Assembly (NCBI GenBank): GCA_002069855.1
Contig: MWCF01000055.1
Span: forward strand, 1 to 44,296
Direction: 5' to 3'
Source of the DNA: Elusimicrobia bacterium ADurb.Bin231
GTDB taxonomy: Bacteria > Elusimicrobiota > UBA8919 > MWCF01
Length of the DNA: 44,296 nucleotides
The notes under the pieces were generated by a model that had not been told where the DNA came from, did no database searches, and worked only from the letters and a program-made list of their open reading frames with translations. The translations under genes and the position numbers were made by a program. Of this stretch, positions 28,475 through 44,296 are shown one piece after another (position 1 is the first letter of the stretch; each line of letters starts with the position of its first letter).

Positions 28475-28645
28475 AAAATTCACAACTTTTTCACAATTTT
28501 TATTATAATATATGGTAGTGGAAGTTGAAAATCGGGTTTTATACAGTGCGCGAATATTTCACGCTCATGCATTTTTTCATCGCGTAGAACAAAACAGAGT
28601 AGAATGAAAGTCGCCATTTAATTTTTTAGACAATATAAATATTAC

Positions 28646-28674
28646 TTGACATTTTTATTTATTTAAATTAAAAT
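28646..28674 (+). promoter_or_regulatory. Strong sigma-70 type promoter upstream of the rhodanese/DsbA-like gene
   Basis: A perfect TTGACA (28646-28651) and TAAAAT (28669-28674) are spaced by exactly 17 bases. They lie in the 263-base gap after the CcdA/DsbD-like gene, about 64 bases before the ATG at 28738. This is the best promoter match in the window and probably drives 28738-30681 and the following Cys/His-rich gene. The rest of the gap holds no visible gene. Confidence 0.65.
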
Positions 28675-28737
28675 TATATACAAAGGGCAAATTTTGTGGG
28701 CGTCCTAACAATTTGGATGTATTTAGGAGGATTTCAA

Positions 28738-30681
28738 ATGAAGAAAACATGCTGGTTGTCTTTAAGTTGTTGCAGTATCAGTGATATGCCATTGAAATTA
28801 ATATTATCAATTGTGTATGTTGTTTCGATTATTACCATTTCGTTTGCTTCGACAAAAAAACCCGTAGGAACTCTTGACCTTGTTATTTCTACTGATGTAG
28901 CAGATGCTACCGGAATACCTATGGAAAAATTTACCAGAGAGACCAAGCCGACATATTTAACTAATGACGCTATACTTATTGATGTTGAAACTTCCGATAT
29001 ATTCAATCAGGAGCATTTGGACGGTGCTATAACAATTCCGGAATCCGAACTCGGGAATATGTTTATTGAGATTACGCGTCTTGCCCAAAGAGGAATGGTT
29101 CCTGTTGTAAGGGTGTATGCGCACAAGGATGTCCAAAAAGCCAGGGACTTTGCCAAACGGCTAAAATCTTTCGGTGTGCCTATGGTTTATTATCTTGATT
29201 TTACATTAGAAGATTGGAAAAAAAGGGGGAATCCAGTTGTTACGCGTGTCCCGCATTATGTGCCTGCGGAATCCGCCTCCGTCCAATCCGGGATTAAGGA
29301 GAAAGATATTATTCGTCCCGATGCTGAACCGCCTATCATAGGTATTGCAATGGATCCAAACGAAATTAAACCCGCCAATTATGTTACTCTCGGTAAAACT
29401 TTGAAGGTGTCTGAATTGATCAATCAAAAATTGCAGGTAAAAAATATTTACAAAGAGACGCGCATAGTACAAATCGGAATTTTTCCTCCTTCGGAGATTA
29501 ATGTCCCTTTAAAGGAAGGATACACCGAAATTCCTAATTCTGTCTGGGTTCAGCCGGAACAACCCGAATTGGAAGTTACGGCCAATAGCGTACGCGATAT
29601 AGAAATATATATCAAAATTCCCCGCGAGGAAAGCAATTTTAACCAAAAATATCAGGCAATGATAGAGGTAAAGACCAAAAAAATGCGAGAAGAAGAAACA
29701 TTTGTCCTCGCATTGAATATACCGATATTTTTAACAACTGAAAAGATTGGCGAAGAGAATCCGAAACTACATATAGTAACAACAGGCGATACGGAAGTGG
29801 GAGATAATTATCTTGCTGACATAGAATTTTTCGGGACATTGCCGAAGTCATTTCAGACTTTGAAGGTGGAAAAATTTGCCCCGTCTTCCAAAGAAGGTAA
29901 GGCGTTAATCAAAAAATATGACATCGATTTTTTGCCGGCCTATATATTTAATAATAAAGTGGAAGAACTTTCCAATTTTAATGAATTATCCGAAGATAAA
30001 AAATTGATTAAATTAAGCGATTCTAATTATCTTTACGCTCCGGGCGCCCGGCCTGGGATTTACACAAAGCGCAAGAAGACGTATAACACCTTGGAAATAA
30101 TAACCACAAGCAACAATCTAAATTATGTAAAGGTAATGAACAAACTTCTGCCGCTATACAAAGAAGGCAAGATCTCCAAAGATATAAAAATATCAGTTAA
30201 TTTTATGGAACAGATGCTCAATGTCCCTCCTACATCCAGTATGGGTCAGCTGGCTGCCGCCGGTGGTGTTTTGCCGCCGGATCCGAATCAGCCGGAATTC
30301 GACGAGGCGAAGCGGCAGTTATATATACAGAAATATCATCCGGATAAATTTATGGATTATTTGTTGTTGCGGGGACAGAATATTTATACGACATACTGGG
30401 AAAATAATCTTTTAAGGGCCGGTTTGAATGATCAGGATATTAAAAAAATGAAAAATTTTTTATTTGAATCTTCTACGGATTCTGTAGTTAAAGACAATTA
30501 CAAAATTGCCAATTCTCTGGGAATCAAAATGTCAGGTACCAGTACATCGGTATTCTTATTGCTGGATAACTGGGTTTTGATAAATGATCCTTCCCTTTTG
30601 GAAAAGTACGCGGCGTTTCGTAAAGCCGATTTGCAGGATTTAAAAGGGTGTTGCGGAAAAACAGCAGTAAGCAGACAATAA
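28738..30681 (+). CDS. Secreted protein: catalytically dead rhodanese-like domain plus cysteine-less DsbA-like domains
   Basis: 647 residues from ATG 28738, set by AGGAGG six bases upstream. A signal or anchor segment spans about 18-38. A rhodanese-like domain (65-168) has ILIDVETSDIFNQEHLDGAI, but where the catalytic Cys loop belongs it reads RVYAHKDVQ, so sulfurtransfer by the usual mechanism is unlikely. A beta-sandwich (about 195-335) follows, then a thioredoxin-like part (343-445, DIDFLPAYIF) and a DsbA-like part (450-625). The latter has TTSNNLN in place of CxxC and QKYHPDKFMDYLLLRGQNIY, clearly related to the protein at 25353. The only clustered cysteines are near the N-terminus (5, 11, 12) and the CC at 638-639. 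Likely a scaffold or thiol-protein chaperone. Confidence 0.65.
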   Translation: MKKTCWLSLSCCSISDMPLKLILSIVYVVSIITISFASTKKPVGTLDLVISTDVADATGIPMEKFTRETKPTYLTNDAILIDVETSDIFNQEHLDGAITIPESELGNMFIEITRLAQRGMVPVVRVYAHKDVQKARDFAKRLKSFGVPMVYYLDFTLEDWKKRGNPVVTRVPHYVPAESASVQSGIKEKDIIRPDAEPPIIGIAMDPNEIKPANYVTLGKTLKVSELINQKLQVKNIYKETRIVQIGIFPPSEINVPLKEGYTEIPNSVWVQPEQPELEVTANSVRDIEIYIKIPREESNFNQKYQAMIEVKTKKMREEETFVLALNIPIFLTTEKIGEENPKLHIVTTGDTEVGDNYLADIEFFGTLPKSFQTLKVEKFAPSSKEGKALIKKYDIDFLPAYIFNNKVEELSNFNELSEDKKLIKLSDSNYLYAPGARPGIYTKRKKTYNTLEIITTSNNLNYVKVMNKLLPLYKEGKISKDIKISVNFMEQMLNVPPTSSMGQLAAAGGVLPPDPNQPEFDEAKRQLYIQKYHPDKFMDYLLLRGQNIYTTYWENNLLRAGLNDQDIKKMKNFLFESSTDSVVKDNYKIANSLGIKMSGTSTSVFLLLDNWVLINDPSLLEKYAAFRKADLQDLKGCCGKTAVSRQ

Positions 30682-30728: not shown

Positions 30729-31673
30729 ATGAAAACAAAGAACATGTTGGCATTATGGAAGAAACGGCTTGTTGTCTACAATTATTTGAACTCTCGGAAA
30801 TTAAGAAAACTGCGGTCTGCTGGCGATGGGATGGATATAAAGAAAGCTTTCCTTTTTGCCGGTTTGTATGCATATAGAATAATTGCCGTGTCCGTTATAT
30901 TCATTATCGGTTTTACATCCAATGTGAAGGCCGGTCCTTCCATTACCGTGATAGGAGGAAATTGGGATCTCGGCAGTCAGATCGCCGGTAGCAAGTTCCA
31001 GACATCCGCTAATAAATGGTCTATACAGGGTTCTCCTGACGGCAAAGAGGATATACAGATTAAAGTTACTTCAACAGGTCAATGGGTTCCTGACCCAGCA
31101 GGCGTTGGAACATCAAAAAATCAATTTGCATTAAGGCGCGACGGTCCTGCCGGCCAGGTTATTACCAATTCGTATGCCACATTTGAAAAAGATTTCAAAA
31201 GAACCGATATGAAAAACTTCGGTTTGTGGTTTCAAACCCCTCCGATAGGAAGCGAAGGCGGCCCGCATACTCTGACTGTTACACTTACTGCCACTAACTG
31301 GCGGGACTGGTGCGGCGGATATAAATGGAGCAACAGATGCTGGTACAACGGCGGTCACTGGGGGCATCAAGGCCATTGTTCCTTCTGCGATGCCATTTGT
31401 CTTCACCGCGGCGGCTGCGATTGGGACGGTATAGTTGCGCATTATAACGATTGTAATACAGGCGGATGTACCCATTGCCATGTATGCCATCATATATGGG
31501 GCGGCAGACATTGCTATTTCCATTATTGGACACACTGCCATCAGGCGCTTGCGTATTGCCATTATCATGGGTATTGTATGAATCATCATCGTTCAGGCGG
31601 GCATGATCACTGCGATTGGCATAGTAACCATGCCAATCACTGGTCAATAAGATTTTGTGCGTGTAAAGAATAA
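30729..31673 (+). CDS. Secreted protein with an extreme Cys/His/Trp-rich C-terminal domain
   Basis: 314 residues. A perfect AGGAGG (30718-30723) sits five bases before the ATG. The first 36 residues are basic; a signal-peptide-like helix follows (about 39-68, ending SNVKA-GP), and an internal ATG at residue 35 could be the real start. Residues 70-188 form a beta-sandwich-like domain with no cysteine (ITVIGGNWDLGSQIAG, SKNQFALRRDG, HTLTVTLTATNW). Residues 190-314 contain 17 Cys, 22 His and 10 Trp in motifs such as CTHCHVCHH and HYWTHCHQ. No heme CxxCH repeat pattern dominates, although single CxxC and CxH pairs occur. It could be a metal-binding domain, a disulfide-dense module or a substrate of the modification genes downstream. 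No family is recognised. Confidence 0.72.
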   Translation: MKTKNMLALWKKRLVVYNYLNSRKLRKLRSAGDGMDIKKAFLFAGLYAYRIIAVSVIFIIGFTSNVKAGPSITVIGGNWDLGSQIAGSKFQTSANKWSIQGSPDGKEDIQIKVTSTGQWVPDPAGVGTSKNQFALRRDGPAGQVITNSYATFEKDFKRTDMKNFGLWFQTPPIGSEGGPHTLTVTLTATNWRDWCGGYKWSNRCWYNGGHWGHQGHCSFCDAICLHRGGCDWDGIVAHYNDCNTGGCTHCHVCHHIWGGRHCYFHYWTHCHQALAYCHYHGYCMNHHRSGGHDHCDWHSNHANHWSIRFCACKE

Positions 31674-32025
31674 GAGAGATTTTTTCTGTTCTCGCAGATG
31701 GATAAATTCAGGCGTGTGATTTTCCTGCCGCTTTTTCGCATATGGCTCAATAGAAGCCGGTAAATATTGCCTTAATAGTCGGTGTTTTTCTTTTTTATGT
31801 TACGTTTTATGATTGAAAAATCCGTCGGCTATAGAATTTTTGTGTTCAACCTCAGTTGTACATATAAAAAGTTAAAAACCGGCAGTGCGCAAAAAAAAGA
31901 TTTATAAAAGTTTATTTCTATATAAAATTATGAAATCTTGCAGTGAATCCCGATATATGTCGGGATTTCGTATTTTTGAATTTTGGAAAGAATATCAAAA
32001 AGTGGTTCATTTGTAATGATATATT
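31674..32025. other. 352-base intergenic region without a visible gene
   Basis: AT-rich spacer between the Cys/His-rich gene and the U32 cluster. No open frame with a ribosome-binding site was found. It holds one strong hairpin near its right end (listed separately) and several TATAAA-like stretches around 31900-31927, none with a convincing -35 partner. It is the likely boundary between the secreted redox genes and the modification locus. Confidence 0.5.
31946..31967 (+). terminator. Hairpin with T-rich tail between the two accessory blocks
   Basis: AATCCCGA and TCGGGATT form a perfect eight-base-pair stem around a six-base TATATG loop, followed by TCGTATTTTT. This fits a modest rho-independent terminator for the upstream Cys/His-rich gene, 270 bases after its stop. 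It also sits only 58 bases before the first U32 gene, so it could be an attenuator or dispersed palindrome. Confidence 0.45.
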
Positions 32026-33087
32026 ATGAAAATCGCATTGGGAATTGAGGGTTCAAGAACGACTGAAGATATAGAAAAACTTGTCCGCGCCGGCGCAGAC
32101 GAATTTTTTTGTGGAATACTTACGGATGATTGGGCCAAAACGTACGGCTATGCGCTTTCTATTAATAAAAGATTTGATCCGGGTACGCAGTTCGCGACTT
32201 TTGAAAATCTGAAAAAAATAACGGATAAAATCCATTCTCTTGGGAAAAAGATATTTATTACTTTTAACGCGCATGATTACACAAATGATCAATTGCCTTT
32301 ACTCCGGCAGTGTTTGGAATGCACCAGCGAATTGAAACCAGACGCGGTTATAGTAACCGACATGGCATTGCTTGTATTGCTTAAAATATGGAATCTCGGT
32401 TTAAAAATACATATAGGCGGGGATGCCGGATCGTATAATTACAGATCCGTTTCATTTTTTAAAAAACTCGGTGTTAATAGAATAAAGTTTCCAAGAGATA
32501 TGACAACAGACGAGATGGCAAAAGTGATAGAAAAATCAAAAGACCTTGGTATGGAATATGAAGCGTTTATTATGGACCAAAGATGTCCTTTTAGCGGCGT
32601 AGGATGCAGAAGCAGTCATGCTTTTGGACCTCGCGATTTTTGCTATCAGTCATGGCGCAAGATTCTTATTTCTCGCTTGCCGTCGCACACGTCTGTTTAC
32701 AGCAGCTCTATTGCGGACGAGGGTAACATTCCGAAAATTTCCGTTGCCGCCGCTCGCGCTTGGAATGAAAACTCTGCTTTATACAAGATGTGGACCGCGG
32801 GCGGGTCGTTTGCTATGTCAAAACCGAGAGATAATATCTTGAGGGAATGCGGGTTGTGCGCTATACCCAAATTAAAGAGTATAGGAGTTGATTCCCTGAA
32901 AGTTGTTGCCAGAGGCAAATCTCTTCCAGGAAAGCTTATGCAGCTTGAACTTATCAAAAGGGTTATTGATAACGAAAACGCCGATTCTGGATATTGCATG
33001 CGTTTGCGAGATAATTTTTCTATTTGTAAACTTGGATATAATTGTTACTATCCTGAGACAAGGGGCATTTTAGAAAAAGAAAATTAA
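32026..33087 (+). CDS. U32-family protein (UbiU/RlhA-like), copy 1
   Basis: 353 residues. TIM-barrel U32 pattern: RAGADEFFCGI near the N-terminus, a catalytic-type stretch YEAFIMDQRC187PFSGVGC194, C206 in DFCYQSW, and EC275GLC278AIPKLKSIGVDSLKVVARGKS. A final CKLGYNCYYPE (C334, C340) is shared by all three paralogues. U32 proteins were named peptidases, but well-studied members (UbiU/UbiV, RlhA, TrhP) are Fe-S enzymes that hydroxylate quinone precursors or RNA without oxygen. The C-x6-C spacing and two further cysteines suggest a [4Fe-4S] cluster here. Start ATG 32026 lacks a good Shine-Dalgarno. Substrate unknown; context is a YcaO/radical-SAM locus. Confidence 0.82.
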   Translation: MKIALGIEGSRTTEDIEKLVRAGADEFFCGILTDDWAKTYGYALSINKRFDPGTQFATFENLKKITDKIHSLGKKIFITFNAHDYTNDQLPLLRQCLECTSELKPDAVIVTDMALLVLLKIWNLGLKIHIGGDAGSYNYRSVSFFKKLGVNRIKFPRDMTTDEMAKVIEKSKDLGMEYEAFIMDQRCPFSGVGCRSSHAFGPRDFCYQSWRKILISRLPSHTSVYSSSIADEGNIPKISVAAARAWNENSALYKMWTAGGSFAMSKPRDNILRECGLCAIPKLKSIGVDSLKVVARGKSLPGKLMQLELIKRVIDNENADSGYCMRLRDNFSICKLGYNCYYPETRGILEKEN

Positions 33088-33176
33088 TGATTGGTGCGGT
33101 TAATGCTTGCATAGATATTGTGTTTGTCGGATTATTTTGAAGCCGTTGGGACTGTCTGCGAAATCGGAAGATTAAT

Positions 33177-34232
33177 ATGAAATTAATGGTGGGTATTGAA
33201 GATTTTACATCGGAAAGCGATATTGAAGAACTGGTCCGCGCCGGTACCGATGAATTTTTTACTGGTATTATACCTAAGGAATGGGCTGGTATTTACGGGT
33301 ATCAGGTGTCATTGAACCGGCGGGAGTGGAGTCCGAATCAATTTCATTCGTTTGAAAAACTTCGGGTTATTGCCGATACAATCCATTCGCTTGGCAAAAA
33401 GATAGCCGTAGCTTTCAATGCTCCGGATTATTACGCGGGTCAACTGCCGTATATTAAAAAGTATTTCCACAAACTTAAAGAATTAAGAATAGACGCTTTA
33501 ATAATAGCGGACTTATCGCTTCTGTTTATGTTGAAAGAGTGGGAGCTGGAATTTGACATTTATATGAGCGGCACCGCTGGGGCATACAATTCCCGCGCTG
33601 TGAAACATTATGCGCATTTAGGCGTTAAACGTATTTTATTCCCGAGAGATATGACGCTTGACGAAATGAAGAATGTCATAGAGAACACATCGCATTCCGG
33701 AATTGAATACGAAGCGTTTATGATGGGAGAACGATGCCCTTTTACGGAATCATACTGCCGAACCACCCACGGGTTTGCTTCCATTTTATTTTGTCATCAT
33801 CTGTGGGGAAAATCTCCATACTTGAGGTTGCAGTTTGGATTCTATAAAATATACGAAAAAGAAGGGAACAAGAATATTGTTGATTATATCAGCCGTCCGT
33901 CAATAGATCTGATAAAAAAATGGAATTATAATTCTGCTCAGTACAAGGGGTGGGCAAGCGGCGGGCTGGCTATGACTTTAAATTTTTTCGATATGGCCGT
34001 AGAGGAATGCGGATTGTGTGCAATACCGGTGTTGGCGGCCATAGGTGTACATTCTCTGAAAATAGTCGGCAGAAGTCGTCCGGTGAAAACTAAACTTGTT
34101 CGCGTAAGACTTGTTAAAAATATACTTGACAATATTAAACTCGGTTCTGCGTACGCAAAGGAATTGAGGAACAATCCGGATTTGTGCGCATTGGGTTACA
34201 AATGTTATTACCCCGAGGCGAGAAACAGGTGA
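33177..34232 (+). CDS. U32-family protein (UbiU/RlhA-like), copy 2
   Basis: 351 residues, a full-length paralogue of copy 1 with the same landmarks in order: RAGTDEFFTGI, YEAFMMGERCPFTESYC, LFCHHLW, EECGLCAIPVLAAIGVHSLKIVGRSRP and the terminal LCALGYKCYYPEAR. All five core cysteines are kept. Residue differences are spread evenly, so the duplication is old and both copies seem under selection. An 89-base gap separates it from copy 1 and seven bases from copy 3. It may form hetero-oligomers with its paralogues or the UbiV-like relative, by analogy with UbiU-UbiV. Function is inferred from family only. Confidence 0.82.
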   Translation: MKLMVGIEDFTSESDIEELVRAGTDEFFTGIIPKEWAGIYGYQVSLNRREWSPNQFHSFEKLRVIADTIHSLGKKIAVAFNAPDYYAGQLPYIKKYFHKLKELRIDALIIADLSLLFMLKEWELEFDIYMSGTAGAYNSRAVKHYAHLGVKRILFPRDMTLDEMKNVIENTSHSGIEYEAFMMGERCPFTESYCRTTHGFASILFCHHLWGKSPYLRLQFGFYKIYEKEGNKNIVDYISRPSIDLIKKWNYNSAQYKGWASGGLAMTLNFFDMAVEECGLCAIPVLAAIGVHSLKIVGRSRPVKTKLVRVRLVKNILDNIKLGSAYAKELRNNPDLCALGYKCYYPEARNR

Positions 34233-34239
34233 GAATGAA

Positions 34240-35148
34240 ATGGAAATAACCGTAGGGATAGACGAAAAGACCTCGCAAAAAGATTTGGATATGTTATTGT
34301 GTGCTGGCGCCACGGAATTTTATTGCGGTATTATGCCGTTTGAATGGGCTAATAAATATGCAGTTCAGGTCTCAACAAATAGACTTGCCGGAGAAAAGTA
34401 TCAATTTGCTTCTTTCAATAGTTTAACGGCAATAGTTGAAAAAATTCATTCCGCGGGTAAAAAGGTTTATGTCTCTTTTGACGCTCTTTATTATACCAAA
34501 GATCAGTTGCCTTATTTCCCCAAATATTTAAATATACTTAAGAAACTGGAAATTGACGGATTGCTTGTTTCCGATGTTTCATTGTTATTATTTTTACGGG
34601 AAGAACATTTTAAGTTTAAAATTATAATGAATGGCAATGCGGGAATTTATAATTCCCGCTCTTTGAAGTATTTCCGGAAATTCGGAGTTTCAAGGATTAT
34701 TTTTCCCATGGATATGACTGTTTCGGAGATAGAAAAGATAATTGTTTTAACATCGGATCCGGGATTGGAATACCAGGCGTATATATCCGCAGAAAGATGT
34801 TTGTTCAGCGCTGCATATTGCCATGTCTCTCACGGATTCGGCAAATTATCGGATTTTTGCAGGTTTTTATGGAATAAAGAAATATTTGTCAGAATCCCGG
34901 TAGAAAATTATCAGGGCATTATTTCGAAAAAAGAAATTACCGATATCGTTAAACTTATTCCCAAACCCGATATAAAACTTTTAAAAACGATGAAAAATAA
35001 TGCAGGTCAGTATAATTTATTTGCAGGCAGTGGGATAGAGAATATTATAGGATTGAAAGAATCTTTGCGTTCAACTTGCGGATTATGCGCGATTTCAATG
35101 CTGGAAAAGATCGGTGTTACAGCTCTCAAGGTTGTAAGCAGGGTCTAA
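34240..35148 (+). CDS. U32-family protein (UbiU/RlhA-like), copy 3, frame broken near the C-terminus
   Basis: 302 residues before a stop at 35146-35148. It keeps FYCGIMPFEWANKYA, YQAYISAERCLFSAAYC, DFCRFLW and STCGLCAISMLEKIGVTALKVVSR, so the barrel and the Fe-S cysteines are present. The paralogues continue for about 50 more residues ending LGYxCYYPEAR; that segment is found here in the -1 frame directly after the stop. The product therefore lacks the conserved C-terminal motif unless the frame is restored. A one-base loss in the GGG at 35141-35143, or a deletion of about 13 bases (the joined protein is about four residues short there), would explain it. Confidence 0.75.
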   Translation: MEITVGIDEKTSQKDLDMLLCAGATEFYCGIMPFEWANKYAVQVSTNRLAGEKYQFASFNSLTAIVEKIHSAGKKVYVSFDALYYTKDQLPYFPKYLNILKKLEIDGLLVSDVSLLLFLREEHFKFKIIMNGNAGIYNSRSLKYFRKFGVSRIIFPMDMTVSEIEKIIVLTSDPGLEYQAYISAERCLFSAAYCHVSHGFGKLSDFCRFLWNKEIFVRIPVENYQGIISKKEITDIVKLIPKPDIKLLKTMKNNAGQYNLFAGSGIENIIGLKESLRSTCGLCAISMLEKIGVTALKVVSRV

Positions 35149-35303
35149 AATTATTGCGATTGGAACACATAAAAGATATTTTAGACATGCAGGAAAATGG
35201 GAATAATGCCGCACACTGTATAAAAATGAAAGCGCTGCCGGAATTATGCCGGCTTGGGTATTTATGTTATTATCCTGATGCGAGGAGGGATACTGATTTA
35301 TGA
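35142..35303 (+). pseudogene. Out-of-frame C-terminal remnant of U32 copy 3
   Basis: In the frame starting at 35142 the sequence reads GLKLLRLEHIKDILD through LPELCRLGYLCYYPDARRDTDL, matching the ends of copies 1 and 2 (KLVRVRLVKNIL and LCALGYKCYYPEAR). Its stop overlaps the next gene as ATGA, the coupling expected if copy 3 originally ended at 35303. It has no ribosome-binding site or plausible start of its own. Either the break is recent, it is a sequencing or assembly error, or translation recodes here. No classical slippery heptamer is visible before the stop. Confidence 0.75.
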
Positions 35304-36223
35304 CAGAATTGGCTATTCATATACCAAGTAGAGCGACAATAGACGCTCTTGATTATCTGGATGCTAAATTTCCGGAATTGGATCTTGGTTCTGAGGGAGA
35401 GCAGTTTAGTTATTGTCCGGAATTATGGGTCAAGCGATTGTTTTCAAATATTAAGGATTTGGGATCTATTACGAGAGTATATTTCGGGAACGAGTTTTGC
35501 CAGAGGCTGATTCCGTCATTGGAAGAATTAAAAGAAGCCAGAAAAATCATTTCAGAAAAAAAACTTGCGTTTACCCTGGTTACTCCGTATGTTACAGATT
35601 CCGGCTTGGAAAAGATAGAACCGCTTTTGGTATATCTCTCCGGCTTAAAAGAAACAGGTATGGAAGTAGTGATAAACGACCCTGGAGTTCTTGATATGGT
35701 GCTGGAATATAAAAACCTGATTCCTGTGATGGGCCGGTTAAAGGATCCAATGAAAAGAATGGCGCGTTTTGTACATCAATTGCCGCAACTTTCTCCTTCT
35801 CAAAAAGATGCCCTGTCTTCTACAAATATTAGCATAGAGGCATATCAGAAATATCTGCTGGATCTGGGAGTGGAGCGCGTTGAGTATGATCTTGTGCCTC
35901 AGGGTATAAGCATAAATTTCAATACTTTGCCATTTAGGGCAAGTTTTTATTATCCGTGGACGTATATTACGACCGGAAGAATTTGCGAAATGGGGTCGTT
36001 GCACCAGAAAGATGAAGACAAATTTACCTTATATAATCCTTGCGGTAAGGAATGCCAAAAATATTATGCCTCATGGCTGACAGAATGGCCGGGTTCCAGC
36101 AACAAGATATTTGCTTTTGGCAATACAATTTTTATGCTTTGCGAAGCTCCGCCTGATGTACTGAAACGGTATATAACACAAGGATTTGATAGAATAATAT
36201 ATCAACCGGTTATACCTATGTAA
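35300..36223 (+). CDS. UbiV-like U32-related TIM-barrel protein
   Basis: 307 residues with no start-of-barrel similarity to copies 1-3. It resembles the more distant UbiV-type branch: ITRVYFGNEFCQRLIPS, FTLVTPYVTDSGLEKIEPLL, and LGVERVEYDLVPQG. Cysteines at 39, 229, 248 and 252 (the last two as CGKEC) match the one-plus-three pattern that I recall for the [4Fe-4S] ligands of E. coli UbiV. UbiV works only as a heterodimer with UbiU in anaerobic hydroxylation. Here it follows three UbiU-like genes and overlaps the last by four bases, so a hetero-complex is a natural inference. No ubiquinone gene is nearby, so the substrate is probably different. Confidence 0.68.
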   Translation: MTELAIHIPSRATIDALDYLDAKFPELDLGSEGEQFSYCPELWVKRLFSNIKDLGSITRVYFGNEFCQRLIPSLEELKEARKIISEKKLAFTLVTPYVTDSGLEKIEPLLVYLSGLKETGMEVVINDPGVLDMVLEYKNLIPVMGRLKDPMKRMARFVHQLPQLSPSQKDALSSTNISIEAYQKYLLDLGVERVEYDLVPQGISINFNTLPFRASFYYPWTYITTGRICEMGSLHQKDEDKFTLYNPCGKECQKYYASWLTEWPGSSNKIFAFGNTIFMLCEAPPDVLKRYITQGFDRIIYQPVIPM

Positions 36224-36293
36224 GAACCTGACGGTTAAAATTTAAGAATAATCGAAAAATTATCTATTGCGATAGCCGTCATTATTTTCTTGT

Positions 36294-36310
36294 TTAATAA
36301 CTGTTATTAA
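36294..36310 (+). promoter_or_regulatory. 17-bp palindrome covering the translation start region of the first radical-SAM gene
   Basis: TTAATAAC, one T and GTTATTAA form a perfect inverted repeat ending six bases before the ATG at 36316. It occupies the position of a ribosome-binding site, and no Shine-Dalgarno is visible there. It could be an operator or a start-site hairpin. AT-rich palindromes of this size can occur by chance. Confidence 0.35.
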
Positions 36311-36315
36311 CTTTT

Positions 36316-37740
36316 ATGATACGTATAGAAATTACCGATTATTGTAATAGGCGTTGTGAATACTGTTTTTTTAACGACAGGCTGAGCGCTAAAAGTGCGG
36401 AAATGAGTATTGCGGATTTTAAAACCGTTCTTGATTATTGCGCCGCCGAAAATATAAATTTTGTTTTTATTCAAGGCGGCGAACCTACAGCGCACAGCAA
36501 TTTCCGTGAAATTATTCGTTTATTAAACAACAGGGAATTTAAGTACACTCTGTTTACAAACGGCGTTTTTGATACCTCTCTGATAAAAGAACTACTGCCC
36601 GCACAAGATAATGAAGTTCTCTTGAATTATAATAGGCCGGATACTTACAGTTCTCCCGGCGACTGGGATTTAGTCAATAGAAATATCGAAGAAATAATTT
36701 CTAAAGGCATAAATTTTAAACTTGGATATACGATGTACGAAAGCAATCCGGATTATACCTTTTTCCTGAATGCCATAGAAAAATACGGCTTAAGAAAAAT
36801 TCGGTGGGATTTGGCGCGTCCGTCACGCAGTTTCACAAATAGATTTTTTGATTTTAAGGAATTTTTTGAAATGAAAAAAACGCTTGCCGAATTTCTTAAA
36901 GAAATAATTAACAGAGGTTGTTACTGCGAGTGGGATTGTCCGTTGCCTGCTTGTATGTTTTTATCTGAGGATTTTGATTTTGTAAATTATAAGATTGATT
37001 TAACCTGTCATTCCAATTGCGGCGCAATGATTAATATAGGCGCCGGTCTGCGCATATCCGGTTGCCCGGCGGGAATGGATTTCAGAGATATATATCTTAA
37101 GGATTTTCAATCATTATCTCAAGCGCAACTTTTTTTGAATGCGGAATTCGATTCAATAAGAAATAAAGTTTGGTTGTCGGATGATTGTATAGATTGTGTT
37201 TACAGATATGCAGGGGAATGTCAGGGCGGTTGTATAGGGCATAAACGAATGCGCGAGGATAAGATTATAGATAAAACGGATCTTAAAAAATTTTTGGAGA
37301 CATCACCGTCTGTCGCGGGATATCCGCAAAATAACAAAATGCCAATCAAGATTGATGAAAATATTTTAAACAAGGCCGTGACAAAATATAGTTCCATGTT
37401 GGAAAAAGACATGAAAAATCCATTTTTGCTTTTTAGTCTGGGTCGTTGCTATGAATATCTTGAATTGTATGATAATGCGATACTGTGTTATGAAAAAATC
37501 AAGCGTACCCATCATAGTTATCTTATTGCAGGATATAGATTGGATTTGGTTTATCAGTTAAAAGCGATTCAAACAAATAAAAAAAATATTCGCGCGTGGA
37601 AAAGGTTGCGGGATATTTGTGCCAATATTTTTGAGAATCCGGAAATCTTCAAAAATTACGTCAGACAATATTCTTTTGATGGAATGTTCGGCGCGGGCGA
37701 CCGGCAGTATGTCATTAATGCCGACAGGGATAAAAAATAA
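36316..37740 (+). CDS. Radical-SAM protein with SPASM-like cysteines and C-terminal TPR, copy 1
   Basis: 474 residues. The radical-SAM cluster motif is YC10NRRC14EYC17, followed by QGGEPTAH (54-60) as the SAM-binding GGE. A cysteine-rich region holds C202, C204, C208, C213, C231, C235 and C250. A SPASM-like set follows at C291-x2-C294-x7-C302-x3-C306 (DDCIDCVYRYAGECQGGC). Auxiliary Fe-S clusters of this kind are typical of peptide-modifying radical-SAM enzymes. Residues about 345-470 form TPR-like helices (FLLFSLGRCYEYLELYDNAI), possibly for substrate or partner binding. It has a near-adjacent paralogue two bases downstream and sits within the U32/YcaO locus. Reaction unknown; peptide or protein modification is the most likely class. 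Confidence 0.85.
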   Translation: MIRIEITDYCNRRCEYCFFNDRLSAKSAEMSIADFKTVLDYCAAENINFVFIQGGEPTAHSNFREIIRLLNNREFKYTLFTNGVFDTSLIKELLPAQDNEVLLNYNRPDTYSSPGDWDLVNRNIEEIISKGINFKLGYTMYESNPDYTFFLNAIEKYGLRKIRWDLARPSRSFTNRFFDFKEFFEMKKTLAEFLKEIINRGCYCEWDCPLPACMFLSEDFDFVNYKIDLTCHSNCGAMINIGAGLRISGCPAGMDFRDIYLKDFQSLSQAQLFLNAEFDSIRNKVWLSDDCIDCVYRYAGECQGGCIGHKRMREDKIIDKTDLKKFLETSPSVAGYPQNNKMPIKIDENILNKAVTKYSSMLEKDMKNPFLLFSLGRCYEYLELYDNAILCYEKIKRTHHSYLIAGYRLDLVYQLKAIQTNKKNIRAWKRLRDICANIFENPEIFKNYVRQYSFDGMFGAGDRQYVINADRDKK

Positions 37741-37742
37741 AT

Positions 37743-39119
37743 ATGGTAGTGAGAATCGAGCTTACTAATTATTGTAACCGTCATTGTCCTTACTGTTTTT
37801 TTAACGATCAACTGACTATGAGTCCTCAGGAAATGTCTCTTGAAGAAGTTCACCGTATTCTTGATTATTGCCGGAAAGATGGGCTGAATTTTGTATTTTT
37901 GCAGGGCGGAGAACCCACTTTGCATTCTAAATTCAAGGAGATATTGAATTTACTCAAGACCCGTAATATTTCTTACGGCTTGTTCACAAACGGTATATTC
38001 GATACCGGATTGCTGGATTATTTTGACACGGCAGCTACCAGCGATATAGTGCTGAATTACAATCATCCGTCAACATATTCCCGCGAATCCGATTGGGAGT
38101 TGGTAAATAGAAATATAGATGAAATTGTGCGGCGCGGATTGTCTTTTAAAATCGGTTACACTTTGTATGAAAAAAAGCCGGATTATCAATTTGTTCTTGA
38201 TATACTGCAAAAACACGGCTTGAATAAATTGCGTTGGGACCTTGCCCGTCCCTCCGGCAAATATACTAATAAATATTTTTCCCTAGAAGAATTTTTCGAG
38301 ATGACGCCCATTGTGGCAACTTTTATGAAAGGTGTTGAAAAATATGCCGGTTTACAGCGAACGGATTGTCCAATCCCGGTTTGTATGTGGTTTGCTGAAC
38401 AACTTGATTTTGTTAATTCCAAGGTCAATCTTTCCCCCCCGTGCGGGAATGGATTAAATATAGGGCCTGGTTTGGTAGTGAGAACTTGTCCGGCAAGCAT
38501 AGAAATAAAGGATGTTCGTCTTACGGATTTTCAGACACTCGCGCAGGCGACTGATTTTATTACAACCTGCGAGAATCGATTTCGTTGGGGCCTGTGGTTG
38601 TTGGATGACTGCAAGAATTGTATTTATCGTGTTACTAAGGAATGTCAGGGCGGGTGTCTGGGCCATAAGAAAGCTGGTTCAGCGTTTTCAATAGGTCGCA
38701 AAGAACTTGAAGAATATCTTTGTGCAGTTCCATCCTTTATGGAAAAAAGCGAAGATATAATACCTGACTATACGAAACAAGCAGATGATATTCAGTCCAT
38801 ATTACGGCATTACATTGGTTTATACGAGGGAGGGAAAAGGTCTGTTTTCTTGACCTACAGCATAGGACGGTGTTATGAAGCGTTGTCTGATTATGATGAA
38901 GCTATTCGATGGTATTGCCGGGTGTTAGATAGGGAACGGGGACATATAGTAACCAAGAATCGGATTGATCTATTGTATCATATTAAAGCCGTTAAATGCA
39001 ATCCAGAGAATAAACAGGTATGGAATCGGCTGCTTCAGGCTTTGATCAAACTTGAAAATTTATCCTCTGCGAAAGAAATAATAAAAAAATTTGATATAAA
39101 AAATATACAAATAAATTAG
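37743..39119 (+). CDS. Radical-SAM protein with SPASM-like cysteines and C-terminal TPR, copy 2
   Basis: 458 residues, a paralogue of copy 1 along its whole length. The radical-SAM motif is YC11NRHC15PYC18 and the GGE motif is LQGGEPTLHS. RWDLARPSGKYTNKYF and LGHKK match copy 1 closely. The SPASM-like set is DDCKNCIYRVTKECQGGC. The middle region has fewer extra cysteines than copy 1, which may mean a different auxiliary-cluster ligation. The TPR tail (about 340-450) includes FLTYSIGRCYEALSDYDEAI. No ribosome-binding site is seen; the two-base gap suggests coupled translation. Two divergent copies point to two substrates or two sites, or to a heterodimer. Confidence 0.85.
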   Translation: MVVRIELTNYCNRHCPYCFFNDQLTMSPQEMSLEEVHRILDYCRKDGLNFVFLQGGEPTLHSKFKEILNLLKTRNISYGLFTNGIFDTGLLDYFDTAATSDIVLNYNHPSTYSRESDWELVNRNIDEIVRRGLSFKIGYTLYEKKPDYQFVLDILQKHGLNKLRWDLARPSGKYTNKYFSLEEFFEMTPIVATFMKGVEKYAGLQRTDCPIPVCMWFAEQLDFVNSKVNLSPPCGNGLNIGPGLVVRTCPASIEIKDVRLTDFQTLAQATDFITTCENRFRWGLWLLDDCKNCIYRVTKECQGGCLGHKKAGSAFSIGRKELEEYLCAVPSFMEKSEDIIPDYTKQADDIQSILRHYIGLYEGGKRSVFLTYSIGRCYEALSDYDEAIRWYCRVLDRERGHIVTKNRIDLLYHIKAVKCNPENKQVWNRLLQALIKLENLSSAKEIIKKFDIKNIQIN

Positions 39120-39128
39120 GAACTAATT

Positions 39129-41156
39129 ATGTTGAAGAAATGTCCAAAAATTTATACCTACGATCAGGATAAGGCATTGAATCCTGAAGATACCGTAAGA
39201 ATAGCTTTTTTAAGGCTTGCCAGATACAATAAAAAACTGATAAAAAGGTTTTATAGCAATAATAATTATTTTGGCATACCGCAATATATGACAGAAAGCA
39301 TTCCTGAACTCCGGCACAAATATTATCCGAGTTCGACGAATGGCAAAGGCGCGACTGAATCTCAGGCGCGCGCAAGTTGTATAATGGAATTCGTCGAAAG
39401 ATACAGCAGCGGCAAATATGCGGGATGGATAAAAAAACGGTATTGCGATATGTCTAATGATGAAGTCCTGCCGCTTGAAAGTGTGGCAGTCAGTCTGGAT
39501 TACCGTGAAGAAGATCTGCGGGAGATAATAGATGAAATGAAATGCCTGCCTATGGATTGGGCAAAAGGCGAAAACCTATTCACAAAGCGAAGCGTTTATT
39601 TGCCGGGAATATTGTTTGAAACCTGCAGTACCGGTCAGGCTGCCGGAAATACTTTGGAAGAGGCTGTGCTGCAGGGATTATGTGAATGCGTGGAGCGACA
39701 TTCCGGCGCGCAGGTGCAATGGACAGATACCGAATACCCCACGATTAAAAAGGATACTATAGACAGCTCGGTGATAAATGAATTGTTAAAAAAAATAGAA
39801 AGCCGTAACGTTGACGTAATCATTAAAGATTTCAGCGATATTATGAAGATTCCGACAATAGGAGTTTTACTGATAGACATGCGGAACAAAAGTAATATCG
39901 GCTGCAGTATCGGTGTTTGCCCGGATAAAGAAAAAGCGCTTATAAGGGCGTTGACTGAATCCGTACAGAGCCCGGCTGGATATAGCGACAGAATGTTGAA
40001 AAATCGAACAGGATCATATTATTACGATAAATATGAACAAGCGGAACATTTGATAAAAGGAGAGTCGAAGAGTTTTCAGCGGGTAATAGACATAAGAGAT
40101 AATGATATTAACGAAGAAATTTGCCGGATAGTCAACATATTGGGCGATGCTGGGCATGAAGCGATGTATGTTGATATGACGGACAGCGTGCTTCAAATAC
40201 CGGTGGTGTGGGTATATGTCAGGAATGCTTTTTTATCTTTCAGATCTCATCCTTTGCCATTCTGGATAGGGAAAATATATTCCGGGTTGAAAAAAGACGA
40301 CGCCGCATGCCGCCATTTTCTCAGAGTACGAACGGTGCGGAATAATCATTCGATGGATACTCTGGATTATTTTCATATAGCCATATGCTATCAAAACAAG
40401 AAGCAATACTCCGCCGCGATAGATTATTTCGAGAAATCCATGGATTCTGATTTACGGGATACAGAGCGCGCCGTAGGATATTTTCAAATTGCAGTTTGTA
40501 ACATATCTCTTGGGAAATATGAAGTAGCATTGAATACGCTTGAAAAAGCTCTTGAACTGGATAGAACCAACGGCGATGTTTTGCTCCAGATGGGCAATTG
40601 TTACAGATTGCTAAGAAGGTATGAAATTGCCGTAAAATATTATAAATCCGCGTTCGATCCGGATATAAAACTTCTCGAAAAATGGGAGCCGCATTTTTAT
40701 ATGGGTATGTGTCTGGCGAATCTCGGAGATTATACGGGAGCGGAGCGTTCTTTACGCTCTTCCATTGAGTATGACCCTAAAAAATGGGTTGTTTATAATT
40801 TTTTAGGTCGGGTTTATGCTGAAAAAAAAGAATATGACAATGCCATTGCTGCTCTCGAAAAAGCTATACAAATAAATCCGTCCGCCGCCTTGAATTATAA
40901 TACTATGGGTGTATTAATGAGAGATAAAAAAGATTATACCAATGCCATAGCAATGTTCATCAAAGCAATAGAGTTGAATCCCATGGAATGGAGCAATTAT
41001 ACATTGCTCGGAAATACATATAGACAAATAGGTGACTATGAATCCGCGGTTAAGACATATGAAACTGTTTCGCGGATTGTTACCGACCCGGAAGTCGCGC
41101 GCATAGTGAAACAAAATCTGGACGATTTAAGATCTCGCATGGGTAAAATATTATGA
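39129..41156 (+). CDS. YcaO-domain protein fused to seven TPR repeats
   Basis: 675 residues. The YcaO domain (about 1-405) has the ATP/Mg motifs ATESQARASCIMEFVER (E87, E90), EEAVLQGLCECVERHS (E178, Q182, E186), and LIRALTESVQSPAGY (R273, E277, Q280). The C-terminal PxPxP of azoline-forming YcaOs is absent; SHPLPF is the nearest equivalent. About seven TPR units fill 408-660. YcaO enzymes phosphorylate amide backbones to make azolines, thioamides or amidines in peptides and proteins; E. coli YcaO has a TPR-like tail and affects RimO-dependent S12 modification. No E1-like, TfuA or dehydrogenase partner is present. PP-loop genes follow with an ATGA overlap, hinting at thioamide-type chemistry. 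Confidence 0.88.
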   Translation: MLKKCPKIYTYDQDKALNPEDTVRIAFLRLARYNKKLIKRFYSNNNYFGIPQYMTESIPELRHKYYPSSTNGKGATESQARASCIMEFVERYSSGKYAGWIKKRYCDMSNDEVLPLESVAVSLDYREEDLREIIDEMKCLPMDWAKGENLFTKRSVYLPGILFETCSTGQAAGNTLEEAVLQGLCECVERHSGAQVQWTDTEYPTIKKDTIDSSVINELLKKIESRNVDVIIKDFSDIMKIPTIGVLLIDMRNKSNIGCSIGVCPDKEKALIRALTESVQSPAGYSDRMLKNRTGSYYYDKYEQAEHLIKGESKSFQRVIDIRDNDINEEICRIVNILGDAGHEAMYVDMTDSVLQIPVVWVYVRNAFLSFRSHPLPFWIGKIYSGLKKDDAACRHFLRVRTVRNNHSMDTLDYFHIAICYQNKKQYSAAIDYFEKSMDSDLRDTERAVGYFQIAVCNISLGKYEVALNTLEKALELDRTNGDVLLQMGNCYRLLRRYEIAVKYYKSAFDPDIKLLEKWEPHFYMGMCLANLGDYTGAERSLRSSIEYDPKKWVVYNFLGRVYAEKKEYDNAIAALEKAIQINPSAALNYNTMGVLMRDKKDYTNAIAMFIKAIELNPMEWSNYTLLGNTYRQIGDYESAVKTYETVSRIVTDPEVARIVKQNLDDLRSRMGKIL

Positions 41157-41917
41157 GAACAATAGCTCATTTGTTTTCTGGCGGCACAGATTCCGCGTAT
41201 GCTGCTGTTTTAATGGCAAAAACTTACGATAAAATTCATTTATTAACATATAATCGGCATGGCTTCAGAAATGTGGAAAACTCCAAAAATTATGCGGAAA
41301 AATTAATGAATATTTATGGGAAAGAAAGGATTTCTCATTTCATAATAAATATAGATAATGAATTTAAAACTTTAAGCTATGGGAACTATTTGCCCAATCT
41401 TACGAGATACGGGTTTTTTAACCTTATGGTGTGCGGATTGTGTAAACTTGCCATGCATTGGCGAACTATAATTTATTGTCTGGATAACGGGATAAAATAT
41501 GTTTCCGACGGCTCCGGAAGGGAAATGTTGCCGGATCAATCGCAAAACGATTCGGTGATAAAAGAAATGCGCGCGTTTTATAAAGATTTCGGGATACAAT
41601 ACTTTACCCCGATTTTTGATATTAATCCCGAAGAAAGAGAACAAACGCTGTATGATATGGGAATAAGTAAAACTCTTCGCATGAAATGGAGCGAAAAGAC
41701 TTGGGATTTGCAGCCGTTTTGTTTTCAAGAATATCTGAATTTGCTTTTTATTCAATATAGTTGTGATGAAAGATATTACAAAATATTCATAAAACACCCG
41801 AAATTTTTAAAATACCGTGATAAGATGCTTTCTTTTCACAGCAGCAAACGTGAGGAAATCAGAGGATTAATTAAAGAATATATATCCGGAATTAAAGAGT
41901 TAAAACATCTTTTGTAA
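41153..41917 (+). CDS. PP-loop ATPase (adenine nucleotide alpha-hydrolase superfamily), copy 1
   Basis: 254 residues. The pyrophosphate loop is FSGGTDS (8-14) at the end of the first strand. C94-G-L-C97 lies in a strongly conserved core followed by KLAMHWR and KYVSDGSGREM. PP-loop enzymes adenylate a carbonyl or phosphate group so that sulfur or nitrogen can displace AMP (ThiI, TtuA, QueC, LarE, CtaC). The CxxC could hold an Fe-S cluster or a persulfide, but this is unproven. No ferredoxin-like or THUMP RNA-binding domain is attached, so a tRNA role is less favoured. It overlaps the YcaO gene by four bases and is followed by a paralogue. Confidence 0.8.
   Translation: MRTIAHLFSGGTDSAYAAVLMAKTYDKIHLLTYNRHGFRNVENSKNYAEKLMNIYGKERISHFIINIDNEFKTLSYGNYLPNLTRYGFFNLMVCGLCKLAMHWRTIIYCLDNGIKYVSDGSGREMLPDQSQNDSVIKEMRAFYKDFGIQYFTPIFDINPEEREQTLYDMGISKTLRMKWSEKTWDLQPFCFQEYLNLLFIQYSCDERYYKIFIKHPKFLKYRDKMLSFHSSKREEIRGLIKEYISGIKELKHLL
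41411..41518 (+). repeat. Duplicated tract shared with 42210-42317 (PP-loop paralogues)
   Basis: This 108-base stretch encodes residues 87-122 of copy 1 and aligns without gaps to 42210-42317 of copy 2. I count 11 mismatches over 108 bases and 4 over the last 75, with one run of 32 identical bases from 41444. Flanking parts of the two genes are far more divergent. Silent sites are mostly identical, which suggests gene conversion. Confidence 0.6.
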
Positions 41918-41951
41918 TCCTCTTTATAGAATATTCGAAAAGGATTAAAAT

Positions 41952-42710
41952 ATGAAAGAAATAGCACATTTGTATTCCGGAGGCACGGATTCCACATATG
42001 CGGCAATTTTGATGCTCAAAATTTACGATAAAGTGCGACTGCTTACATATGACCGGCTTGGTTTTAAAAATGTTCACCTTTCAAAACGATATGTGGCGAA
42101 ATTGCAAAAGATATTTGGATATGACAGAGTGACGCATACTATAATGAACATAGATTCGGAATATAAAATCCTAAGCAGAGTCGACAATTATACGGAGTTT
42201 TTCAAATACGGTTTTTTTAATCTTATGACTTGCGGATTATGCAAACTTGCCATGCATTGGCGAACTATAATTTACTGCCTGGATAACGGCATAAAATATG
42301 TTTCCGACGGTTCCGGAAAAGAGATGTACGTGGATCCATCCCAGCATTCAGCTGTTATCCCGGAAATGCGGAAGTTGTATAAAAGATTCGGGATTCAGTA
42401 CCTTTCGCCATCCTTTGACACCTCCCCTGAAGAAAGGGAAGGCGTTCTGTTTAAAATGGGCATAAGCGAACGGCAGGTAATTAAATGGACTGACGCGACA
42501 TGGGAATTACAACCTATATGCTCGCAGGAATATTTGCACCTTTTGCATGTCCAGTATAAATGCAAAAAACGAATATTTCAATTACGCGACCTTCAGCCGG
42601 ATTATTTGAAGTATGAAAAAAGGATGCTGGATTTTCATAAACACAAACGTGAAAAGTTAGTGTGGCTTATAGAAAGGTATATTGCCGCGAATAAGATTGT
42701 TACTTCTTAA
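41952..42710 (+). CDS. PP-loop ATPase (adenine nucleotide alpha-hydrolase superfamily), copy 2
   Basis: 252 residues, collinear paralogue of copy 1. YSGGTDS occupies the same positions (8-14), and C94-x2-C97 and SDGSGKEM are kept, so both copies should be active. The C-terminal third diverges (WELQPICSQEYLHLLHVQYKC against WDLQPFCFQEYLNL). AAAGGA precedes ATG 41952. Retention of two PP-loop, two radical-SAM and three UbiU-like copies in one locus suggests parallel processing of related substrates or hetero-oligomeric enzymes. Specific chemistry cannot be assigned; sulfur transfer or amidation are the options known in the superfamily. Confidence 0.8.
   Translation: MKEIAHLYSGGTDSTYAAILMLKIYDKVRLLTYDRLGFKNVHLSKRYVAKLQKIFGYDRVTHTIMNIDSEYKILSRVDNYTEFFKYGFFNLMTCGLCKLAMHWRTIIYCLDNGIKYVSDGSGKEMYVDPSQHSAVIPEMRKLYKRFGIQYLSPSFDTSPEEREGVLFKMGISERQVIKWTDATWELQPICSQEYLHLLHVQYKCKKRIFQLRDLQPDYLKYEKRMLDFHKHKREKLVWLIERYIAANKIVTS
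42210..42317 (+). repeat. Second copy of the duplicated PP-loop tract
   Basis: Partner of 41411-41518, residues 87-122 of PP-loop copy 2. The two tracts lie 799 bases apart in direct orientation, so recombination between them could delete or fuse the two genes. Confidence 0.6.
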
Positions 42711-42727
42711 ATTTCAAGGAGGGGCTA

Positions 42728-42886
42728 ATGCGGAATGTCAAAAAATATTTTCAAAGGGCAGCGCTGTTTATTATTCTCAGCGCCGCTCTTCTTATGCCTT
42801 GGCGCATGAGATGTTGGTTCTCCGAGAAATTATTTTTGTTTAATAAAAAACATAAGGGTAAACTGGACAGTTTATTATTTGATTGA
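42728..42886 (+). CDS. 52-residue small ORF with strong ribosome-binding site, candidate membrane peptide or precursor
   Basis: An AAGGAGGGG (42716-42724) lies three bases before ATG 42728, the best ribosome-binding site in the modification locus. The frame encodes 52 residues ending with TGA at 42884-42886. A basic N-terminus (RNVKKYFQR) is followed by a hydrophobic stretch (about 11-24) and then a basic, aromatic tail containing the only Cys (C29), RCWFSEKLFLFNKKHKGK, and LDSLLFD. It could be a small membrane protein, or a leader-type precursor for the YcaO, radical-SAM, U32 or PP-loop enzymes that flank it. There is no glycine-rich or repeat core typical of known azole peptides. The ribosome-binding site and context carry the call. 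Confidence 0.5.
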   Translation: MRNVKKYFQRAALFIILSAALLMPWRMRCWFSEKLFLFNKKHKGKLDSLLFD

Positions 42887-42923
42887 AGGATAAAAAAATA
42901 TTTTATCGCCAGTTGATTCCAAT

Positions 42924-43661
42924 ATGAACGCACCTAAAAATAGCAGAAAAAACATTCTTGATTTAGATATGAGATTGCGTGTGGCGTACAATCACGACCG
43001 CGGTATGATTGAACAGCTCGGCGACTATAAACAATATGTCCAATCAGTTTATATTGTTCCCAACTTTAATGTTTTTCCGAATTCTGGAGCTGTATTATTA
43101 AAAAAAATAAATTGGGATAGATACGATGAGGAAGCCGGATGGGTGATAAGAGAATTAAAGAAGAGCGAAATAAAGACATATTTGTTGTTGAATGCGACAA
43201 ATTTTGATCCTGATATAGTGAGAGGATACGAGATAAGCGAGTTGAGGAAGTATCTAAGAAAGATGGTGAAGGAGTACGGGTTGGAGAAGGCGGTTATATT
43301 CAGCATACCATTGGCGCAGCGAATAAAGGAAGATCTGCCTGAGCTCGGTCTTGAGGTATCCACAAATGCGGGAGTCGACTCTCTTGAGAAGGCGCGGTAT
43401 TGGCAGGATGCCGTGGATATAGAGGGTATATGTGTTCACCAGCGTTTGAACAAAAGGATAGAGATACTTAAACAGATAAAAACATATACCGGGTTGAAAC
43501 TTTCCGCGATTGTCAACAGTTTTTGTCTTGTGGAATGTCCGAATGAAATTTCGCATAACAATTTTTGTTCATATAAAGGGCATTCTTCGCCTGCGTATGA
43601 TTGTGGCTCGGTAATTATTGAAAAACTGTGCCCGCCAATCTGGAGCATTATAAAGGTATAA
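42924..43661 (+). CDS. U32-like TIM-barrel protein, N-terminal part (frame broken)
   Basis: 245 residues before a stop at 43659-43661. From LRVAYNHDRG onward the pattern is a U32-like barrel: VSTNAGVDSLEKARYW, then IVNSFC201LVEC205PNEISHNNFC215, AYDC227GSV and EKLC236P. The motif of Cys-x3-Cys-Pro and a following His resembles a distinct U32 branch related to UbiV, not copies 1-3. The remaining barrel (NLEHYKGIIDIVKLEGR) and a TPR tail continue in the -1 frame from 43634. M16 at 42969 is an alternative start; neither start has a clear Shine-Dalgarno. It is distantly related to the other U32 proteins of the locus and closes the visible cluster. Confidence 0.7.
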   Translation: MNAPKNSRKNILDLDMRLRVAYNHDRGMIEQLGDYKQYVQSVYIVPNFNVFPNSGAVLLKKINWDRYDEEAGWVIRELKKSEIKTYLLLNATNFDPDIVRGYEISELRKYLRKMVKEYGLEKAVIFSIPLAQRIKEDLPELGLEVSTNAGVDSLEKARYWQDAVDIEGICVHQRLNKRIEILKQIKTYTGLKLSAIVNSFCLVECPNEISHNNFCSYKGHSSPAYDCGSVIIEKLCPPIWSIIKV

Positions 43662-44296
43662 TAGACATCGTCAAACTGGAGGGAAGATCCGCGGATACCA
43701 AGGTGTTGATGCGCGAGGTTAAGCATTTTTCCGAAAATTTGGAGTCTTATAACTATTGTTTGCCGGATGAGCAGCTGGTTTCTTCTTATCCGTTTTATCA
43801 TCCGTATAATGTCAATGAGGAACCAGCCGAGGTTTTTGAAAAGGTTAATTTATGCGATAGGAATTGTATTGATTGCAATTTTTGCCGAAAGATGTGGGAA
43901 TCCTTTTATAAACCTGGTGAGCATATAGATTATTATTTGAATGGCTGTATGTATTTTCGCAAGAAACAATATGGATTGGCATTGGATTGCTTTGAAAAGT
44001 ATACATCGTTGCACGGGCAGATAGACGAGTTGTTATTGTTTCGAAAGGCGGTCTGTTATAAGGAACTTGGCGAGTTTGTTCGAGCAATGGAATTGTTGAA
44101 ACGATTAAGTTCGGGCAGATATTTACTTATTCCTGATGTCAGGATAAATCTTGGGCAGTGTTATCTTGCTATGGGTGAATATGCAGAAGCAGTGAAGGAG
44201 CTGGAAACTGCGCAAACGCAAGAAGGAAGCAGTGTTAATATTCTGGTGCATCTTGGCATAGGGTATGAGGGGCTGGGGAAGTTCGAAGAAGGATTA
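43634..44296 (+). CDS. Continuation of the U32-like protein with TPR tail, -1 frame, truncated by window edge
   Basis: From 43634 to the right edge the frame has no stop codon (221 codons). It reads ANLEHYKGIIDIVKLEGRSA, the missing end of the U32 barrel, then NLCDRNCIDCNFCRKMW, a tight four-cysteine cluster. TPR units follow (CMYFRKKQYGLALDCFEKY, AVCYKELGEFVRAMELL, GQCYLAMGEYAEAVKEL). Adding one C to the CCC at 43631-43633 would join it to the preceding frame as KLCP-ANLEHYK. No start codon or ribosome-binding site explains it as a separate gene. The cysteine cluster before TPRs mirrors the SPASM-TPR order in the radical-SAM proteins upstream. The 3' end is outside the window. Confidence 0.75.

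Follow-up and report, generated by a model that had tools for sequence, protein, structure and literature searches.

The DNA analysed here (the window) is the entire 44,296-nt contig MWCF01000055.1 (C55) of the 1.77 Mb draft genome of Elusimicrobia bacterium ADurb.Bin231. From position 32026 to the contig end it carries a block of genes, all on the plus strand, encoding two intact UbiU-like U32 proteins and a frame-shifted third, one UbiV-like protein, two radical S-adenosylmethionine proteins with tetratricopeptide repeats (rSAM-TPR), one YcaO-TPR protein, two PP-loop ATPases and one broken U32-TPR protein. An initial annotation made from the sequence alone had read these genes as one pathway that heavily modifies a protein, peptide or possibly RNA under anaerobic conditions. 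Scans of the window proteins against Pfam and NCBIfam (genes in 18133-44296) confirmed its U32, radical-SAM and YcaO-TPR calls, together with weak PP-loop and weak U32 matches, while the third U32 gene and the last U32-TPR gene on its list are frame-broken. The overlaps and tiny gaps it described are present inside the block (spacings of -4 to +92 bases), except that 213 bases precede the last gene. No structured RNA or tRNA and no tandem repeats were detected in the window.

The first UbiU-like protein (32026..33087; 353 residues; PF01136, 4e-24) has kept the four-cysteine pattern, and its best NCBIfam scores, 68 bits with TrhP and 51 bits with UbiU, lie far under the cut-offs. The second (33177..34232; 351 residues; PF01136, 3e-30) is similar to E. 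coli UbiU in BLASTP (6e-13). Equivalog-level similarity to UbiU was not reached in NCBIfam (67 versus 440 bits); when a UbiU-like protein is aligned with the four cysteines of UbiU, two columns coincide and the remaining two cysteines are present but loosely aligned. The third UbiU-like gene (34240..35303) is frame-shifted near 35140: the U32 domain of Pfam lies in the frame 34240-35148 and the C-terminus continues in the frame 35076-35303. The adjacent protein of 307 residues (35300..36223) has no match in Pfam or NCBIfam, but its residues C67, C229, C248 and C252 share alignment columns with the cysteines shown to hold the [4Fe-4S] cluster of E. coli UbiV (PMC6747719), and the label 'UbiV-like' given in the initial annotation therefore holds. 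The last gene (42924..44296), with a weak U32 match at 42924-43661, was recognized by comparison with its paralogues as a single U32-TPR gene with a frame-shifting deletion near 43600-43640; as the window is the whole contig, this gene runs off its end.

The two neighbouring radical-SAM proteins (36316..37740, PF04055 1e-15; 37743..39119, PF04055 4e-18) are 42% identical to each other and end in a short TPR stretch. Their alignment contains CNRRCEYC, i.e. CNR(R/H)CxYC (CX3CX2C), followed by a C-terminal CX2CX7CX3C as in SPASM radical-SAM proteins; since the second spacing is CX7 where CX5 is usual, we call these cysteines SPASM-like.

The YcaO protein (39129..41156; 675 residues; PF02624, 1e-53) continues into a long TPR superhelix. 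Its predicted structure (predicted local distance difference test, pLDDT, 90.7) has E. coli YcaO (4q85) as best fold match in Foldseek, over the whole length and about 610 columns, and the E, Q, E, E and R of the ATP motif Sx6-7Ex3Qx3ExxER are kept, placing it in the YcaO superfamily. The nearest NCBIfam model is methan_mark_1, at a score of 115 versus a cut-off of 365. The E. coli enzyme thioamidates uL16, a ribosomal protein; its TPR domain is responsible for dimerisation and may aid substrate binding (PMC13063428). No match to TfuA (PF07812) was found in the genome assembly, so that sulfur must arrive by another route, and a standard TfuA-dependent thioamidated cluster of ribosomally synthesized and post-translationally modified peptides (RiPPs) was rejected. 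An azoline-forming RiPP cyclodehydratase was likewise rejected, because the PxPxP motif is absent from the YcaO-TPR protein.

Both PP-loop ATPases (41153..41917 and 41952..42710; 59% identical) have weak PP-loop matches of the QueC/DUF7411 kind in Pfam and NCBIfam, and are related to YcfA: in profile comparison their family matches YcfA at 8e-30 versus QueC at 3e-6. The nearest solved structure to the predicted fold of the first (41153..41917; pLDDT 88.7) is YcfA of Erwinia amylovora (9kq6, E 1e-10), and C109 of the window protein, invariant in the family alignment, has C113 as its aligned counterpart in YcfA; PP-loop motif, fold and cysteine are thus all those of the YcfA type. YcfA is the thionation enzyme of 6-thioguanine biosynthesis and, together with YcfC, yields 6-thioguanosine (PMC6225789). 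The pyridoxal-phosphate-dependent partner YcfC is not among the window genes scanned.

The same gene types are amplified in this genome, with at least five YcaO-TPR, five U32-TPR, four UbiU-like, two UbiV-like, three rSAM-TPR and three close PP-loop genes. These paralogues, missed by the initial annotation, lie on at least four further contigs, which are small and repeat-broken. The paralogues, about 47–54% identical, stay grouped: contig C93 keeps YcaO-TPR and U32-TPR together with a further close PP-loop gene, C103 has YcaO-TPR with U32-TPR, and C105 has UbiU-like and UbiV-like genes with a TPR gene; U32-TPR copies are found on C55, C93 (two), C103 and C47. All five YcaO copies have the TPR form, and their YcaO domains are mutually 46–54% identical, so that the duplications are old. 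Stretches of U32-TPR and TPR sequence, in turn, are 90–98% identical in DNA, and the identity among U32-TPR copies is mosaic, a pattern suggesting that copies have recombined. On C47 (157-3894), TrpG/PabA- and TrpE-type genes immediately precede the U32-TPR gene. Hydroxylases of the UbiU/V type are thought to use chorismate-derived prephenate, and this neighbourhood may therefore be meaningful.

This repetitive setting could mean that the block is a decaying, repeat-driven gene family with little function left, situated in a region that is mobile or recombines. Apart from the two frame-broken genes and the mosaic identities, such decay would fit the contig ends, which fall at near-identical repeats (C55 and C103 share a terminal 55-mer), and the insertion sequences: C93 has transposase sequence at its end, and the start of C105 looks like transposase sequence and has a 127-base match to another contig's end. 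Most copies, however, are long intact frames with their motif residues kept, and frame breaks close to repeats may be artefacts of a fragmented metagenome assembly; we consider decay very unlikely. A phage or plasmid origin and a defence system were rejected. The PP-loop gene was not found in phages, and scans of viral contigs gave no YcaO relative and one rSAM fragment of 30% identity; plasmids carry just distant YcaO and rSAM relatives; and PADLOC returned only weak matches to defence systems (viperin-like for rSAM; SspD at 6e-4).

In a set of 295 genomes of the phylum, 22 have PP-loop relatives, 15 have YcaO above the cut-off and 38 have UbiV-like proteins, while close rSAM relatives and U32-TPR proteins are confined to this genome. 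None of the other genomes has the full set, nor a YcaO-TPR, rSAM-TPR or U32-TPR protein of this kind (0 further genomes), and a pathway conserved across the phylum was therefore rejected. One part of the locus does recur: UbiV-like and PP-loop genes are both present in ten genomes and are no more than 7 kb apart in five of them, this one included, where random placement would give 0.26 of ten (P ~1e-6, with two of the five genomes belonging to one genus and hence not independent, and with hit counts per genome entered by hand). The neighbourhood of UbiU, UbiV and PP-loop genes recurs in four other genomes. The block is a real association rather than a chance line-up, because the paralogue contigs keep the gene types linked and because UbiV-like and PP-loop genes co-locate in those four genomes. 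The single pathway proposed in the initial annotation is supported to this extent, whereas the non-conservation that it had named as grounds for refuting it applies to the rest of the set, only part of the locus being conserved between genomes.

Three of the recurring loci, L058 (genome G032), L237 (G192) and L056 (G084), are conserved clusters with UbiU, UbiV, a YcfA-like PP-loop protein, several B12-radical-SAM proteins and a zinc-ribbon (HMPTM) radical-SAM protein, and probably represent an undescribed lipid or glycan pathway. FAD amine-oxidase-like, GNAT, and DegT aminotransferase or ArnT-like membrane genes also occur in them. A genome of the phylum can have UbiV-like genes at as many as seven places (e.g. 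G154), with no known quinone role there. By extension, the UbiU/UbiV, YcfA-like and radical-SAM enzymes of the window might build an unusual lipid, sugar or nucleobase, with YcaO-TPR recruited as an amide-activating step. The known substrates, guanine for YcfA and quinone precursors for UbiU/V (PMC7994395, PMC6747719), agree with this. However, the G032, G192 and G084 clusters are without YcaO-TPR, U32-TPR and rSAM-TPR, glycosyl-, acyl- and aminotransferase genes are absent from the window block, and TPR tails better suit protein partners; we regard a small-molecule product as somewhat unlikely.

Relatives of YcaO-TPR outside the phylum were sought in 84,980 species genomes by a scan limited to relatives that contain either of two short peptide motifs, of which the best 80 were retained, and more may therefore exist; these best 80 are about 24–31% identical and all come from Desulfobacterota-type records. 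The Desulfobacterota genes are solitary: no neighbours of the window type were seen in the 80 YcaO loci, nor any rSAM relative in 15 genomes, and a cluster shared with Desulfobacterota was rejected. This solitary occurrence, like that of the third rSAM-TPR gene, which stands alone among housekeeping genes on C28, would fit independent modifiers of housekeeping proteins or RNA (e.g. YcaO on a ribosomal protein, U32 on tRNA) that were gathered by duplication and do not form one pathway; the action of E. coli YcaO on uL16 (PMC13063428) offers a precedent. Five diverged YcaO copies are nevertheless many for housekeeping, the same gene types are kept together on paralogous contigs, and the genes overlap or nearly touch, which makes independent modifiers a fairly unlikely explanation.

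We propose, tentatively, that the block encodes a lineage-specific anaerobic protein-modification set whose targets would be one or more of the bacterium's own proteins, a reading that is quite possible if still short of probable. A protein substrate is favoured by analogy, from the TPR tails and the architecture of E. coli YcaO, with a peptide or RNA also possible. What the data show are the genes present, their motifs and key cysteines, the folds, and how the genes are linked and duplicated; from these we infer reactions, substrate and purpose; on the best reading of families and folds, the chemistry would include exchange of C=O to C=S. YcaO-TPR would activate a backbone amide with ATP, after which the oxygen would be replaced by sulfur or an azoline formed, and the YcfA-like enzymes could catalyse a second step, either C=O to C=S exchange or amide activation, or supply it. 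The UbiU/UbiV-type and U32-TPR proteins would carry out O2-independent hydroxylation, the radical-SAM/SPASM proteins could introduce cross-links or other C-H chemistry, and the TPR tails found on three enzyme types may serve substrate docking or enzyme assembly. The number of diverged paralogues implies that there are several substrates, or several sites. A reading of the TPRs as asparagine ladders was dropped, because by eye the residue positions do not fit.

A candidate substrate lies just upstream, at 30729..31673 on the plus strand; the initial annotation had overlooked it. The encoded protein has a Sec-type signal, best from the Met at 30831 (the probable start), an N-terminal domain of about 150 residues and a 124-residue tail rich in Cys, His, Trp, Tyr and Gly (22 His, 17 Cys, 16 Gly, 10 Trp and 8 Tyr). 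Among 587 open reading frames (ORFs) from about 0.6 Mb, i.e. about one third of the genome, its tail has the highest C+H+W density (0.48 in 60 residues versus 0.23 for the second-ranked ORF, which encodes a ferredoxin-type protein), and no second protein with such a tail was seen in this third. No close homologue was found. The N-terminal domain is weakly matched (E 0.0015) in a surface-protein-like gene of another genome (L203 of G034, 382-2010), whose C-terminus resembles the FGE/C-type-lectin variable region of diversity-generating retroelement targets. Position and composition make this protein the best single candidate, and modification of its tail would precede export, after which the tail would be on display outside the cell, perhaps binding metal; that it is a substrate of the enzyme set is nonetheless doubtful, if well worth considering. 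Sec-exported, Cys-rich modified proteins do have precedent in the bufferins and oxazolins (PMC12452194).

Several observations weigh against the proposed protein-modification set and its candidate substrate. Between the candidate gene and the enzyme genes lie 352 bases with a strong terminator-like hairpin (31945..31968, plus strand), and the candidate gene sits 47 bases behind 28696..30681, a gene on the same strand for an exported rhodanese/thioredoxin-fold-like protein (PF00581, 2e-5). The candidate gene may therefore be part of a separate unit, and only its position links it to the enzymes; it is also single, while the enzymes occur in many copies. The YcaO of the window has Ala in place of the first Ser of the ATP motif, a substitution shared by about one quarter of the 80 Desulfobacterota relatives. 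Two genes of the block are frame-broken, and elsewhere UbiU, UbiV and PP-loop genes occur in the glycan- or lipid-like clusters described above. Finally, no RiPP recognition element, leader or dedicated exporter, nor a protease, was found among the window genes scanned; the initial annotation had likewise seen no exporter, protease or standard recognition domain. Of the usual parts of a RiPP cluster, the region offers a candidate precursor in the exported protein.

Directly upstream of the candidate gene, the region 25353-30681 encodes envelope proteins with thioredoxin-like, DUF1573, CcdA/DsbD-like membrane and rhodanese-like parts, which suggests extracytoplasmic thiol chemistry. A possible short ORF of 52 residues, basic and hydrophobic (42728-42886, plus strand), follows a perfect AGGAGG (AGGAGGGG) between the PP-loop and U32-TPR genes. 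Further away, at 14767-15531, a methyltransferase surrounded by glycogen-type genes matches the daptide RiPP methyltransferase model at 4e-31, below the model cut-off.

The locus is thus real, unusual and more complex than first described, with restricted conservation and a candidate substrate. Its parts are of known kinds, and in the open-licence literature searched we found no publication uniting YcaO, U32 and radical SAM, as the initial annotation had supposed, nor any description of this combination, its amplification, or TPR fusions of U32 and SPASM enzymes. If the proposal is right, one substrate would receive two kinds of sulfur-inserting amide chemistry, YcaO and YcfA-type, as well as O2-independent hydroxylation and radical chemistry; it would be, to our knowledge, the first protein substrate for UbiU/UbiV-type hydroxylases, and TPR tails would emerge as a docking device common to unrelated modifying enzymes. 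A bolder version, which we consider rather improbable, is a family of paralogous cassettes whose TPR-tailed YcaO, U32 and rSAM enzymes and YcfA-like thionases share one docking system and jointly hypermodify Cys/His/Trp-rich exported proteins into thioamide- and hydroxyl-bearing metal-binding or redox surface material. For co-expression, the locus supplies defined enzyme pairs and one explicit candidate substrate.

In methanogens, McrA is a single protein that carries several modifications, including a YcaO-dependent thioglycine. The window set resembles McrA maturation in combining YcaO with other modifiers, here proposed to act on one protein, and in its nearest NCBIfam model; it differs in lacking an McrA context and TfuA, and in a methan_mark_1 score under the cut-off. 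With the O2-independent hydroxylase UbiU-UbiV it shares paired U32 proteins with [4Fe-4S] cysteines, but its scores are far under the UbiU/UbiV equivalog cut-offs, quinone genes are not alongside, and there are extra U32-TPR fusions. The PP-loop proteins are like YcfA of 6-thioguanine biosynthesis in sequence profile, fold and the C113/C109 alignment, but stand in another context, with neither YcfC nor a NUDIX gene beside them. Bufferins and oxazolins share the idea of a Sec-exported Cys-rich substrate (PMC12452194), but the enzymes in the window are entirely different, and neither the MNIO enzyme nor the DUF2063 partner of bufferins is among the matches for the genes scanned. The closest likeness in architecture is to E. 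coli YcaO and the YcaO-TPR proteins of sulfate reducers (DVU2210 type), which share a YcaO domain followed by TPRs, the absence of PxPxP and TfuA, and a fold match over the full length (PMC13063428, PMC7774982). Compared with these proteins (about 576 residues), the copies in this genome have more TPRs (675–859 residues) and number five, and, unlike the YcaO-TPR genes of Desulfobacterota, the window gene is linked to U32, rSAM-TPR and PP-loop genes.

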